64,000 bases of DNA. Source: Olivibacter domesticus (GTDB lineage Bacteria > Bacteroidota > Bacteroidia > Sphingobacteriales > Sphingobacteriaceae). The stretch covers positions 1-64,000 of the forward strand of contig NZ_FOAF01000010.1 in the NCBI RefSeq assembly GCF_900109575.1, written 5' to 3'. Position numbers and translations under genes: made by a program. A model generated the notes under the pieces. That model did not search any database. It saw only the letters and a program-made list of their open reading frames with translations, and was not told the origin of the DNA. Positions 3,173 to 10,965 of this stretch are shown piece after piece; the stretch's first letter is position 1, and every line of letters begins with the position of its first letter.

Positions 3173-6007
3173 ATGAAGAGCAGTAATACACCAGATTTAG
3201 GAGAGCAAAACGAACTTGAAGTATATGGAGCTAGGGTACATAACCTTAGAAATATAGATGTTATCATTCCAAGGAATGAATTGGTTGTTATAACTGGTTT
3301 AAGTGGAAGTGGAAAATCTTCTTTAGCATTTGATACCATTTATGCTGAAGGGCAAAGGCGTTACATGGAAACATTCAGTGCTTATAGCAGGCAGTTTATG
3401 GGCGGAATGGAACGCCCAGATGTAGATAAGATCGCGGGTTTGAGTCCGGTTATTGCAATTGAACAAAAAACAACTAGTAAAAATCCACGATCAACTGTTG
3501 GTACTATTACAGAGATTTACGATTTTATGCGCTTACTTTATGCACGTGTAGGAGAGGCCTTTTCCTACGTCAATGGTAAGAGAATGGAACGAATGTCGGA
3601 GGATCAAATAATAGACCGTATCATCATGCAGTTTGTAAACCAACCTATAAATATCTTAGCTCCTTTAATTAAAGGCCGTAAAGGACATTATAGAGAACTT
3701 TTTGAGCAGGTTCGAAAACAAGGATATGTCAAAGTAAGGGTAGACGGGGAGATTTTAGATCTGACACCTAAAATGCAGGTAGACCGCTATAAGATTCACG
3801 ATATTGAAGTGGTGATAGATCGTATATTGGTTTCAGATAAAGATAAGAAACGATTGCAGACTTCTGTACAGCAAGCAATGAAAGCTGCTAAAGGGATAAT
3901 AAAGATTAGTGACAAGGATAACAATGAATATTTTTTTAGTCGATATTTAATGGACCCGGAAAGTGGAATATCCTATGACGAACCTCAACCAAACACATTC
4001 TCCTTTAACTCGCCTTATGGAGCCTGCGAAAAGTGCGACGGTTTAGGCTATGTGTATGAAATAGATAAGAAGTCAGTTATACCGGATCCAACGCTAAGCG
4101 TGTTAAAAGGCGGATTGGCGCCATTAGGTGAATATAAAGATAATTGGACATTTCAACAATTAAAGGCTATTGCCAAAAAATACGATTTTTCCCTATCATC
4201 ACCTTTAGAAGCTCTTTCAGAAGAGCAGCTGGATATCTTACTTAATGGTGCACCCGACCTCATTACGGTTCCTGTTGCTTACAATAAGTGGAATGTGAAA
4301 GAGTATAAGATAACCTTTGATGGTTTATTTAAACTGCTAGAGGAACAATCCGAGAGAAAAGGCGATGATATGGAGCTATTCCGAGCCATGAAAACATGTC
4401 CAAGTTGTGGTGGTGCCAGATTAAAGAAAGAATCCTTACATTTTAAACTGGCGGACAGGAATATTTTTGATCTTTCTTCAATGGATATTGTAGCCCTGAC
4501 TGCTTGGTTCGAAAATCTGCAGGAAAAGCTAAACGAACGTCAGAATATTATAGCTGAAGAAATTCTTAAAGAAATTAGAAATCGTTTGAGCTTTTTACTT
4601 AATGTGGGTTTAGGGTACCTTACATTAGATAGAACAGCGAAAACGCTCTCCGGTGGCGAAGCACAGCGCATTAGGCTAGCCACACAAATTGGATCACAAT
4701 TAGTAAATGTATTGTATATTTTGGATGAACCCAGTATTGGCCTTCATCAACGAGATAATGAACGTTTAATTAATGCATTGAAACATTTGAGGGACATTGG
4801 CAACTCCGTCTTGGTAGTAGAACATGATAAAGACATGATTCTAGAAGCAGATTATGTAATAGACATGGGACCAGCGGCTGGGTTAAATGGCGGTACGATA
4901 GTGGCACATGGAACACCTTCTCAAATAAAAAAATCTCAAACATTGACTGCCGCCTATCTAAATGGTCAAAAGGAAATTGCTATTCCTAAAATCAGAAGAG
5001 ATGGAAATGGCTTAAAGTTAAAGCTAGACAAAGCAACGGGCAACAATCTGAAAAATGTTTCTGTTGAATTTCCATTGGGCAAGCTTATTACTGTTACGGG
5101 GGTATCTGGTAGTGGGAAGTCTACCTTAATCACGGAGACATTATATCCGATATTAAATCATCATTTTTTTAGAGCAAAGAAAACACCTATGCCTTATAGA
5201 AAGATGGAAGGATTAGAGCATATTGATAAGGTTATAGAAATTGATCAAACACCTATTGGCAGAACGCCTCGATCCAACCCTTCTACTTATACGGGAGTAT
5301 TTTCTGATATCAGAACGTTATACGTTCAATTACCTGAGGCTAAGATAAGAGGGTATAAGCCTGGAAGGTTTTCTTTTAATGTAAAAGGTGGTAGATGTGA
5401 AGTTTGTCAAGGAGCGGGTATGAAAGTAATTGAAATGAATTTTTTGCCCGATGTACAGGTGCCTTGCGAAGCATGTAATGGAAAACGATATAATAGAGAA
5501 ACGCTGGAAGTTAGATACAAGGGAAAGTCTATCAGTGATGTACTGGATATGAGTATAGATGAGGCAGTTCCCTTTTTTGAATCAATTCCAGCCATCTACA
5601 GAAAAATTAAAACCCTGCAAGACGTTGGTTTAGGGTATATTACGTTGGGGCAGTCGTCTGTCACACTGTCGGGTGGAGAAGCGCAACGAGTTAAATTAGC
5701 GACAGAGCTTTCGAAAAAAGATACTGGAAACACCTTTTATATTTTAGATGAGCCCACTACAGGCCTTCATTTTGAAGATGTACATGTTCTTTTAGGGGTA
5801 TTAAATAGACTGGTGGATAGAGGAAATACGGTGTTGGTAATAGAACATAATCTGGATGTCATTAAGGTTGCGGATTGGATTATCGACCTTGGACCTGAAG
5901 GTGGTGCAGCAGGTGGGCAGGTATTATTTAGCGGAACTCCGGAAGAGATGATAAAAACTAAGAAGGGGGAAACAGTTAGATTTTTGAAGGAAGAGTTAAG
6001 TGCATAG
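3173..6007 (+). CDS. uvrA: Excinuclease ABC subunit A
   Basis: Damage-recognition ATPase of nucleotide excision repair; loads UvrB at lesions. Two ABC modules are visible: Walker A GLSGSGKSS near residues 42-50 and VTGVSGSGKST in the second half, and two signature motifs LSGGEAQR. Zinc-binding cysteine pairs occur as CEKCDGLGY, CPSCGGAR and, in the second module, CEVCQGAG with CEACNGKRY. I chose the ATG at 3173 (MKSSNTPDLG) rather than an in-frame ATG at 3125, because it gives the usual family length of 944 residues and removes a 16-residue hydrophobic stretch not expected in UvrA. Its partner uvrC lies at 30.8-32.7 kb. It starts a three-gene plus-strand unit with the DUF59 and MgtC-like genes. 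Confidence 0.96.
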   Translation: MKSSNTPDLGEQNELEVYGARVHNLRNIDVIIPRNELVVITGLSGSGKSSLAFDTIYAEGQRRYMETFSAYSRQFMGGMERPDVDKIAGLSPVIAIEQKTTSKNPRSTVGTITEIYDFMRLLYARVGEAFSYVNGKRMERMSEDQIIDRIIMQFVNQPINILAPLIKGRKGHYRELFEQVRKQGYVKVRVDGEILDLTPKMQVDRYKIHDIEVVIDRILVSDKDKKRLQTSVQQAMKAAKGIIKISDKDNNEYFFSRYLMDPESGISYDEPQPNTFSFNSPYGACEKCDGLGYVYEIDKKSVIPDPTLSVLKGGLAPLGEYKDNWTFQQLKAIAKKYDFSLSSPLEALSEEQLDILLNGAPDLITVPVAYNKWNVKEYKITFDGLFKLLEEQSERKGDDMELFRAMKTCPSCGGARLKKESLHFKLADRNIFDLSSMDIVALTAWFENLQEKLNERQNIIAEEILKEIRNRLSFLLNVGLGYLTLDRTAKTLSGGEAQRIRLATQIGSQLVNVLYILDEPSIGLHQRDNERLINALKHLRDIGNSVLVVEHDKDMILEADYVIDMGPAAGLNGGTIVAHGTPSQIKKSQTLTAAYLNGQKEIAIPKIRRDGNGLKLKLDKATGNNLKNVSVEFPLGKLITVTGVSGSGKSTLITETLYPILNHHFFRAKKTPMPYRKMEGLEHIDKVIEIDQTPIGRTPRSNPSTYTGVFSDIRTLYVQLPEAKIRGYKPGRFSFNVKGGRCEVCQGAGMKVIEMNFLPDVQVPCEACNGKRYNRETLEVRYKGKSISDVLDMSIDEAVPFFESIPAIYRKIKTLQDVGLGYITLGQSSVTLSGGEAQRVKLATELSKKDTGNTFYILDEPTTGLHFEDVHVLLGVLNRLVDRGNTVLVIEHNLDVIKVADWIIDLGPEGGAAGGQVLFSGTPEEMIKTKKGETVRFLKEELSA

Positions 6008-8873: not shown

Positions 8874-9008
8874 TTTAATCCTGATTTAATTTATAAATAG
8901 GCATTTGCCTTATATTTTTGAACTTTTTATGACGTAGAAGTATTTGCCCGATAAGTTTTTGGTGCATTAACTAACTTAATTAGTTAATGAAATACTTTTA
9001 CAAATGAA

Positions 9009-9039
9009 TTGCAAAGTTACTAAAATTATCTTAGGTTTG
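9009..9039 (+). promoter_or_regulatory. Bacteroidota-type promoter of the former metE gene
   Basis: A TTG at 9009-9011 and TAGGTTTG at 9032-9039 are 20 bases apart, matching the -33/-7 (TTG ... TAnnTTTG) promoter of Bacteroidota. Transcription would begin just downstream and run into the cobalamin riboswitch fragment. Confidence 0.55.
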
Positions 9040-9069
9040 GGGTCACTTGTTAATAACAATTACTCAGAT

Positions 9070-9150
9070 TGAGCGCATAAAGGTTTCTCTTAACGAGAAT
9101 TAATAAGGAACCGTGTGTAAATCACGGGCTGTCGCGCAACTGTAAACATT
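9070..9150 (+). promoter_or_regulatory. Truncated cobalamin riboswitch
   Basis: The run contains an AAAGGTT stretch, AAGGAA, a CCGTG-TGTAAAT-CACGG stem-loop and CTGTCGCGCAACTGTAA, the most conserved core of B12 riboswitches (usual form GGTGAAAATCC...CCCGCAACTGTAA). The 3' half, with the second conserved block (GCCAGGAGACC type) and the expression platform, is absent: the sequence switches directly into MetE coding sequence at about 9151. B12 riboswitches upstream of metE shut it off when cobalamin is available to MetH. The remaining piece should not form a complete aptamer. Confidence 0.75.
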
Positions 9151-9390
9151 TTCCTATCATATCCGAATGACATTGGTCCTGGCGTATATGATATACATTC
9201 TCCGCGTGTTCCAAGCAAGGACGAAATGGTCAACTTAATTGAAAAAGCCAAATCGGTACTTGATTACAAGCAATTATGGGTTAATCCAGATTGTGGTTTA
9301 AAAACGAGAGCATGGCTAGAAACAAAGGCGGCGTTGGAAGCCATGGTAGAAGCTGCCAAGGCATTAAGAGGGGTAGCAAAGCCGGTTTAA
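9151..9390 (+). pseudogene. metE: 3' remnant of cobalamin-independent methionine synthase
   Basis: Seventy-nine codons plus TAA encode the exact C-terminal end of Met[20 protein letters not shown], then [14 protein letters not shown], with the histidine of the IHSPR motif and the zinc-ligand cysteine of NPDCGLKTR. About 690 upstream residues are missing. No ATG precedes it in frame (the frame closes at a TAA at 9118-9120), so no functional enzyme is possible. Riboswitch upstream and terminator downstream show that this is the native metE locus with one internal deletion, not a random insertion. The surviving frame has no internal stop, which suggests a recent event. Confidence 0.88.
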
Positions 9391-9416
9391 GAACTAATTT
9401 GTCTAACATTTGTTAC

Positions 9417-9450
9417 AAGGGTGAGGTGCATTTGCACCTTGCCCTTTTTC
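9417..9450 (+). terminator. Terminator of the metE remnant
   Basis: Arms 9417-9430 and 9433-9446 form a long stem closed by two bases and followed by a T-rich run (TTTTTCTTTTT). It lies 27 bases after the MetE stop and 16 bases before the start of nnr. Confidence 0.75.
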
Positions 9451-9465
9451 TTTTTAACTTTCATC

Positions 9466-10965
9466 ATGAGAAACATAATGACCGTAAGCCAAACACGGGA
9501 GGCAGATCGTTTTACAATAGCAAATGAACCCGTTTCGACTATTGATTTGATGGAAAGAGCATCACAAGCCTTTGTGCAAAAGTTTATCTCTTTATTTTCT
9601 GATCAGCGCATAAGTGTTTTGATCTGCTGTGGACCGGGGAATAACGGTGGGGATGGCTTAGCTATAAGTCGACTACTTTATGAGTACGGTTATTCCAATA
9701 TAAGGGTTTGGATAGCTGACTTCAACGGAAGTAGAACTGATGATTTTAAGGTAAATTTTCAACGACTGTCGGAAATCCCGATTCATGTGAATGAATTAGC
9801 TAATACGGATAATTTCGAGGCTATTGAAGCAGCTATTGTCATCGATGCACTTTTAGGATCTGGGCTTAATAAACCGTTAGAAGGTGCTCTATTGAATCTT
9901 GTGAGACATATAAATGCTTCTGGTAAACAAGTAATATCTGTTGATATTCCTTCGGGTATGCCTGCAGACGGAAATATCATGGTAGAAACGGAATCCATCT
10001 TTGCAAGAGACGTAATTAGTTTTCAAAGGCCGAAGCTGAGCTTTTTTTTTCCTGAGTCCGCAAAATCTTTAAGGTATTTCCATACGGTTGATATTGGCTT
10101 GGACGAAACGTATATATCAGCACTTAAAACTGACTTTTTTGAAATTACCGAAGATGATATTAGGTCAGCGCTTATAAAAAGGAGCCCATTTAATCATAAA
10201 GGTACTTTTGGACATTGCCTAATATTCGCAGGAAATATTAACACCATGGGAGCTGCGTTGTTAAGTGCTGAGGCAAGTTTATATACCGGCTCCGGTTTAA
10301 CATCACTTTGTATACCTCCTAGCGGTTTGAGTGCTTTAAATACAAGACTACCAGAAGCTATGGCATTAGAAAGGGAGCAATTACCTAGCATACGGAATTT
10401 AGAAAAATATGCTGCGTTAGCTGTAGGTCCGGGTTTAGGTGTAGGAGAAGATGAAAAAAAATATCTGAGATTATTACTTAATAGTAAGATTACCTCGACG
10501 GTAATAGATGCTGATGCATTGAACATACTTGCTCAAGAGGGAGAACTATTTGAGCAATTAAAACCGGGAACAATTATTACTCCACATATGAAAGAGTTTG
10601 ATCGGTTGTTTGGAAGCAGTAAAAACTGGTGGGAAAGAACGGCAAAAGCAAGAGAAAATGCCGTGAAGAGGCAGATTATTATTGTTCTTAAAAATAGATA
10701 TACATTTATAGCCATGCCAAATGGAAAAGTTATCATTAATCCGACAGGTAATCCTGGGATGGCAAGTGGTGGTATGGGGGACGTGTTGTGTGGAATGATA
10801 GGATCTTTATTAGCTCAAGGTTATGCAGCTGAAGAAGCAGCTATGCTTGCTTGCTTTTTACATGGCAAAGCGGGCGATTTATTGGCAGAAGAAGGGATGG
10901 CTGTGATTCCTCCTACTATGCTAATACAGAAAATCCCCAAAGTGATCGGGGATTTTACGTTATAA
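9466..10965 (+). CDS. nnr: Bifunctional NAD(P)H-hydrate epimerase / ADP-dependent dehydratase
   Basis: Repairs damaged NAD(P)H: the N-terminal YjeF_N domain epimerises NAD(P)HX and the C-terminal ribokinase-like domain dehydrates the S form using ADP. The first domain (to about residue 210) shows CCGPGNNGGDGLAISRLL and IDALLGSGLNKPL; the second shows FNHKGTFGHCLIFAGN, AVGPGLGVG, VIDADALN and the nucleotide-binding GNPGMASGGMGDVLCGMI. The fused layout is typical of bacteria. I take the ATG at 9466; another ATG at 9478 is four codons on. A strong terminator sits just before it, so its own promoter must overlap that hairpin or it depends on read-through. Its last codons also encode a hairpin. 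Confidence 0.93.
   Translation: MRNIMTVSQTREADRFTIANEPVSTIDLMERASQAFVQKFISLFSDQRISVLICCGPGNNGGDGLAISRLLYEYGYSNIRVWIADFNGSRTDDFKVNFQRLSEIPIHVNELANTDNFEAIEAAIVIDALLGSGLNKPLEGALLNLVRHINASGKQVISVDIPSGMPADGNIMVETESIFARDVISFQRPKLSFFFPESAKSLRYFHTVDIGLDETYISALKTDFFEITEDDIRSALIKRSPFNHKGTFGHCLIFAGNINTMGAALLSAEASLYTGSGLTSLCIPPSGLSALNTRLPEAMALEREQLPSIRNLEKYAALAVGPGLGVGEDEKKYLRLLLNSKITSTVIDADALNILAQEGELFEQLKPGTIITPHMKEFDRLFGSSKNWWERTAKARENAVKRQIIIVLKNRYTFIAMPNGKVIINPTGNPGMASGGMGDVLCGMIGSLLAQGYAAEEAAMLACFLHGKAGDLLAEEGMAVIPPTMLIQKIPKVIGDFTL
10930..10956. terminator. Hairpin inside the last codons of nnr
   Basis: Nine-base perfect arms (AAAATCCCC at 10930-10938 and GGGGATTTT at 10948-10956) lie entirely within the coding end of nnr. 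Both flanks are A- or T-rich, so it can act for nnr on the plus strand and for the convergent lipA gene on the minus strand. Confidence 0.55.

Follow-up and report, generated by a model that had tools for sequence, protein, structure and literature searches.

A metE deletion scar behind half a cobalamin riboswitch in Olivibacter domesticus, and a second metE relic in front of mesXD in the same genome

The metE scar and its intact counterparts

The window, the whole stretch of 64,000 nucleotides that was analyzed, comprises positions 1 to 64,000 of contig NZ_FOAF01000010.1 of Olivibacter domesticus (GCF_900109575.1), read on the forward strand. Positions 9009–9450 contain a deletion scar of metE, the gene for B12-independent methionine synthase, as confirmed by comparison with congeners, and all parts of the scar lie on the plus strand. 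It begins with a promoter-like block (9009–9034), in which TTG at 9009 sits 18 bases upstream of a −7-like element, TATCTTAG, at 9027, which we take to be the Bacteroidota-type −7 element. In a four-congener alignment, this stretch is kept upstream of the intact metE genes, clearly in three genomes and more weakly in G002. Sigma-70-like sites near the scar (three found, 1.6 expected) are uninformative.

The 5′ half of a cobalamin riboswitch follows at 9064–9154, with the conserved core GCGCAACTGTAA at 9134–9145, and stops before the B12 box and the closing strands. The Rfam scan of the whole window at the gathering score calls no riboswitch. A focused scan of the scar gives RF00174 at 30.0 bits (E = 8.7e-6) against a gathering score of 31.5, and the 3′ half of that alignment is spurious, being spread over metE coding sequence. 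Three patterns, allowing at most one substitution, find no B12-box-like motif on the plus strand between 8800 and 9700. The scar thus has neither the gathering score nor the 3′ B12 box of an RF00174 member, and B12 sensing by the half aptamer is not to be expected.

Beyond the deletion junction at 9155–9159, the last 76 codons of metE and the stop codon occupy 9160–9390 as a single open frame up to TAA. An open frame to the stop had been read from the sequence alone and is there, with 76 MetE-homologous codons rather than the 79 given. The translated tail matches positions 681–752 of 754 in TIGR01371, the MetE family (E = 8.4e-33), and only positions 256–323 of 324 in PF01717, which is short of a full C-terminal Meth_synt_2 domain. 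No metE start codon stands at the tail, the earliest in-frame ATG being at 9226. Judging from these features, a methionine synthase enzyme would not be produced from the scar. An intrinsic-terminator-like hairpin of 13 pairs, followed by a T-run, closes the locus at 9417–9446; a scan of 8950–9480 finds two terminator-like sites where 0.4 are expected. A match to the L20 leader at 9373–9456 (E = 0.043, 22.9 bits, where the gathering score is 58.7) was dismissed as this terminator hairpin.

The locus was compared with four other genomes of the genus (G001–G004). All four carry an intact metE (open frames of 775–795 codons, 773–776 amino acids from ATG) preceded by a full B12 riboswitch (82.7–98.4 bits). 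In each, the scar and the intact gene share their neighborhood, with an antiporter-like gene and a TrkA-C protein on one side and an NAD(P)HX epimerase/dehydratase on the other, so that the remnant is a metE pseudogene at the ancestral locus. The flanks of the scar are colinear with the congeners by blastn. The half riboswitch aligns closely with those of the congeners. Homology in the leader stops at 9154 for G001, G003, and G004 and at 9145 for G002, and the blocks resume at 9160. Window positions 9154 and 9160 correspond to positions 3255 and 5623 of the G004 locus, and the 2367 bases of G004 without a counterpart here extend from the 3′ part of the riboswitch through about metE codon 698. 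The alignments fit one deletion, and the scar is found in only this one of the five Olivibacter genomes compared. The remnant shares its place, leader, and C-terminal sequence with the congener MetE genes (TIGR01371 or PF08267 plus PF01717, under RF00174), but its start, N-domain, and riboswitch 3′ half are gone, along with most of the catalytic domain.

These comparisons bear out most of the structural part of the sequence-only reading. The promoter-like block, the first half of the riboswitch, the MetE C-terminus, and the terminator-like hairpin lie there as it described. A single internal deletion agrees with the intact metE at the same place in all four congeners, none of which has the short form that would have spoken against it. 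The loss of the riboswitch 3′ half and of much of metE also holds, though the estimate of about 690 codons becomes about 698 when measured against G004.

The tail shows a pN/pS of 0.107–0.151, as compared with 0.026–0.127 among the intact genes, over 68 codons with synonymous sites near saturation. Over the same 68 codons, it has four changes at otherwise invariant sites as compared with zero to two. No clear relaxation is seen in the tail, which may reflect a recent deletion or a sample of 68 codons that is too small to tell.

Methionine synthases elsewhere in the genome

The MetE N-domain (PF08267) has no match in the O. domesticus genome, leaving no protein to be assigned to MetE, and a search with PF01717 returns MesD and two metE tails only. 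No other intact metE is therefore present. The genome does contain metH as an ORF of 1294 amino acids, beside an ORF that is presumably MetF-like. For B12 itself, neither the CobS nor the CbiC model finds a match, and contig C10 encodes a BtuB-like TonB receptor (113.8 bits, under the family's curated cut-off of 599.7). The receptor gene lies in a likely B12 uptake operon (C10, L008 4658–8975) composed, as predicted from its sequence, of a B12 riboswitch, a protein without a Pfam match, the receptor, and a DUF5074 protein. The lack of CobS and CbiC matches, together with this receptor downstream of a riboswitch, suggests that B12 is probably imported.

Contig C13 carries mesX and mesD, adjacent and full length. 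MesX scores 599.7 bits over positions 2–322 of the 323 in its model, and MesD reaches 673.6 bits, above the curated cut-off of 392 for a methionine synthase equivalog; the pair has the gene content of the MesX/MesD system, namely PF08908 and a core synthase without the folate-binding N-domain. A full cobalamin riboswitch (99.5 bits), the third of this genome, lies upstream of mesX. MesX/MesD has been reported to synthesize methionine without cobalamin or methyl-folate and to need oxygen (Price et al. 2021, PMC7857596). Since the genome holds intact mesXD and such activity has been reported, B12-independent methionine synthesis has probably not been lost in the strain, with the activity of MesXD taken from the literature. 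This outcome goes against the sequence-only reading, which had concluded that the pathway was lost. C13 resembles the system of Price et al. (PMC7857596) in carrying both genes adjacent and full length; it differs, as far as that article describes its system, in that a full B12 riboswitch precedes them and a metE relic lies in between. The word "riboswitch" does not occur in the main text of PMC7857596.

The unit on C13 (L007 6275–8889) consists of the B12 riboswitch, a 41-codon metE relic, mesX, and mesD. A divergent Lrp/AsnC regulator lies upstream (L007 9026–9514), and the gene downstream is, we assume, symporter-like. The relic is an ORF between the riboswitch and mesX (L007 8535–8410, minus strand) in which the metE start is joined in frame to the tail. 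Its leader and first codons match the metE start of G212 and relatives, and the rest matches their last codons, with the two blast blocks overlapping by 8 bases at the join. About 2.16 kb is missing in frame relative to metE of G212. Among 251 genomes of the family searched, 149 of which gave a match, the closest intact MetE is that of G212 at 90%, whereas identity to the window tail is 71%. By this difference, the relic belongs to another metE lineage, and its origin as a copy of the window tail is rejected.

That C13 belongs to this genome is indicated by RuvB: the only full-length RuvB of the genome is encoded on C13 and is 97, 97, 95, and 92% identical to those of the four congeners, by which C13 is rejected as a contaminant contig. 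Tetranucleotide profiles were also compared with a host mean built from seven 20-kb pieces of C2, C10, and C16 and from the window. Those seven pieces correlate with the mean at 0.754–0.876, and 10 of the 11 pieces of C13 at 0.693–0.806. The 14-kb piece around mesXD gives 0.631, within reach of short loci from other genomes (0.349–0.650). This lower profile fits acquired DNA; short pieces generally score low, and the profiles are weaker evidence than RuvB.

mesX, metE, and the riboswitch across the family

In the survey of 251 genomes of the host's family, mesX occurs in 13 genomes; the four congeners all lack it. A cobalamin riboswitch is found by Rfam at 10 of the 12 other mesX loci, at only 38.7 bits in L035, and none is found on the fetched loci L024 and L028. 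In 7 of these 12 loci (L027 and L029–L034), the aligned leader runs directly into mesX. By pattern, a metE tail is found at none of the 12, and the metE relic is kept only at the O. domesticus locus among the 13. A general association of mesX with a short MetE tail was rejected, as the tail pattern occurs at none of 92 loci (L024–L115), several of which have little upstream DNA. Outside these family loci, none of 11 mesX loci selected from 80 (eight Bacteroidota, including a Sphingobacterium, and three gammaproteobacteria) has a B12 riboswitch, which indicates that such wiring of mesX is not general. The Acinetobacter baumannii mesX locus L105 has no Rfam riboswitch. In two A. baumannii strains, B12 reportedly represses DUF1852 genes about 2^8-fold (PMC12892962), and another B12 control may act there.

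Of the 13 mesX genomes, 3 (G165, G178, and G199) have a match to the metE N-domain, as compared with 144 of the 238 others (Fisher p = 0.0096, with kinship ignored). The figure of 144 is 148 matches less the three mesX genomes and G059, whose match is a C-terminal pseudogene; it includes G032 and G043, which have N-terminal pieces only, and at least one genome counted as lacking metE, G035, has its gene cut by a contig end, with the tail there. metH is present in 183 of the 251 genomes, including 11 of the 13 with mesX (not G136 and G165). In G136 (L024), which has mesX, neither the MetE N-domain nor the MetH activation domain finds a match, so that MesXD may be the only methionine synthase of this genome; the mesX locus has no riboswitch at the gathering score. 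Reduced metE genes occur elsewhere in the family: G032 (L176) and G043 (L177) retain N-terminal parts only, G059 (L152) a frameshifted C-terminal part, and G197 (L153) about 52 degenerate C-terminal residues.

A tree of the region from Lrp to the leader was built from the C13 locus, the 10 riboswitch-bearing mesX loci, and 7 metE loci. It splits the mesX loci, with C13, from the metE loci (100/100) and pairs C13 with the riboswitch–mesX locus of G145 (97/96). The same pair recurs in the mesXD tree of 22 loci (99/96). There, C13 and G145 group with loci of the Sphingobacterium and Flavobacteriaceae type, apart from the type found in the other riboswitch-bearing cassettes of the family, whereas in the leader tree C13 nests among cassettes of that other mesXD type. 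This discordance shows that leader and mesXD have recombined. The metE relic on C13 is in keeping with a riboswitch that originally served metE, but it could also be a later insertion rather than ancestral.

Displacement of metE and its alternatives

The best explanation, to which we give a probability of roughly 80%, is that the window holds a dead metE scar from a deletion of about 2.37 kb, that the loss was tolerated, and that metE has been displaced by MesXD. This single deletion took out the metE start and about 698 codons together with the 3′ half of the riboswitch; what remains is the promoter-like block, half of the aptamer, 76 metE codons, and the terminator. Two other methionine synthases in the genome, MetH with imported B12 and MesX/MesD, would have made the loss of metE tolerable. 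We infer that mesXD came to sit behind a riboswitch–metE unit and took over its B12 control, and that both metE copies would have been deleted afterwards, presumably in that order.

Ordinary loss of metE with reliance on MetH and imported B12, MesXD being incidental, is the alternative that fares best, though we consider it distinctly the less probable account. It shares with the displacement reading the scar and not the displacement. The four other family genomes in which metE has decayed (G032, G043, G059, and G197) all have metH, and three of them lack mesX, in line with such a loss, as are the missing CobS and CbiC matches and the BtuB-like receptor downstream of another B12 riboswitch in O. 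domesticus. Known metE pseudogenes and losses in B12-using organisms likewise combine loss of metE with retention of MetH. They differ from the present case, in which there are two separate collapses in two metE lineages and the genome also has MesXD. Contrary to an incidental role, mesXD is missing from the four congeners, which keep metE, and occurs in the one genome that lost it, and the second metE relic lies directly in front of mesX.

An assembly artefact, in which an intact metE has collapsed, was the alternative named in the sequence-only reading and is very improbable. The assembly has 23 contigs and a stated contamination of 4.17%, which leave some room for error, but the missing MetE N-domain is on no contig, completeness is given as 100%, and the flanks keep the gene order of the congeners. 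Such an error would also have had to strike two metE loci of separate lineages. We give still less credence to a functional small RNA or short protein from 9035–9450, the former having been proposed earlier as a stable RNA with an aptamer fragment: a promoter-like element and a terminator remain and the open frame shows no measurable relaxation, but the metE part has no in-frame ATG, GTG, or TTG before 9226, the 3′ half of the riboswitch is gone, the fold of the truncated leader is no more stable than those of shuffled sequences (z = −0.72, 44 of 200 shuffles as good), and none of the four congeners has the short form.

Within the displacement reading, a more specific version of events is rather doubtful: C13 might be the fossil of a regulatory takeover in which metE was excised in frame and the 41-codon ORF is still translated, coupling the riboswitch to mesX. 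The window scar would then be the second step, the native metE being lost once MesXD was under B12 control.

The scar in the window is ordinary in kind; the new variant is the riboswitch–mesXD unit, with its metE fossil. Among papers mostly available without subscription, none was found to link DUF1852 to the term "cobalamin riboswitch", or MesX to both riboswitch and methionine. In PMC12478193, an article on methionine synthesis, "core methionine synthase" and "riboswitch" occur once each. If displacement by MesXD is true, the replacement of a core enzyme would have been caught in the act, and the absence of metE need not mean that a strain depends on B12. The poorly known MesX/MesD system would be wired by a riboswitch to B12 in much of the host family (10 of the 12 other mesX loci). 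MesD is reported to be insensitive to nitrous oxide (PMC13059711), and this wiring would be relevant to B12 exchange and to nitrous oxide tolerance.
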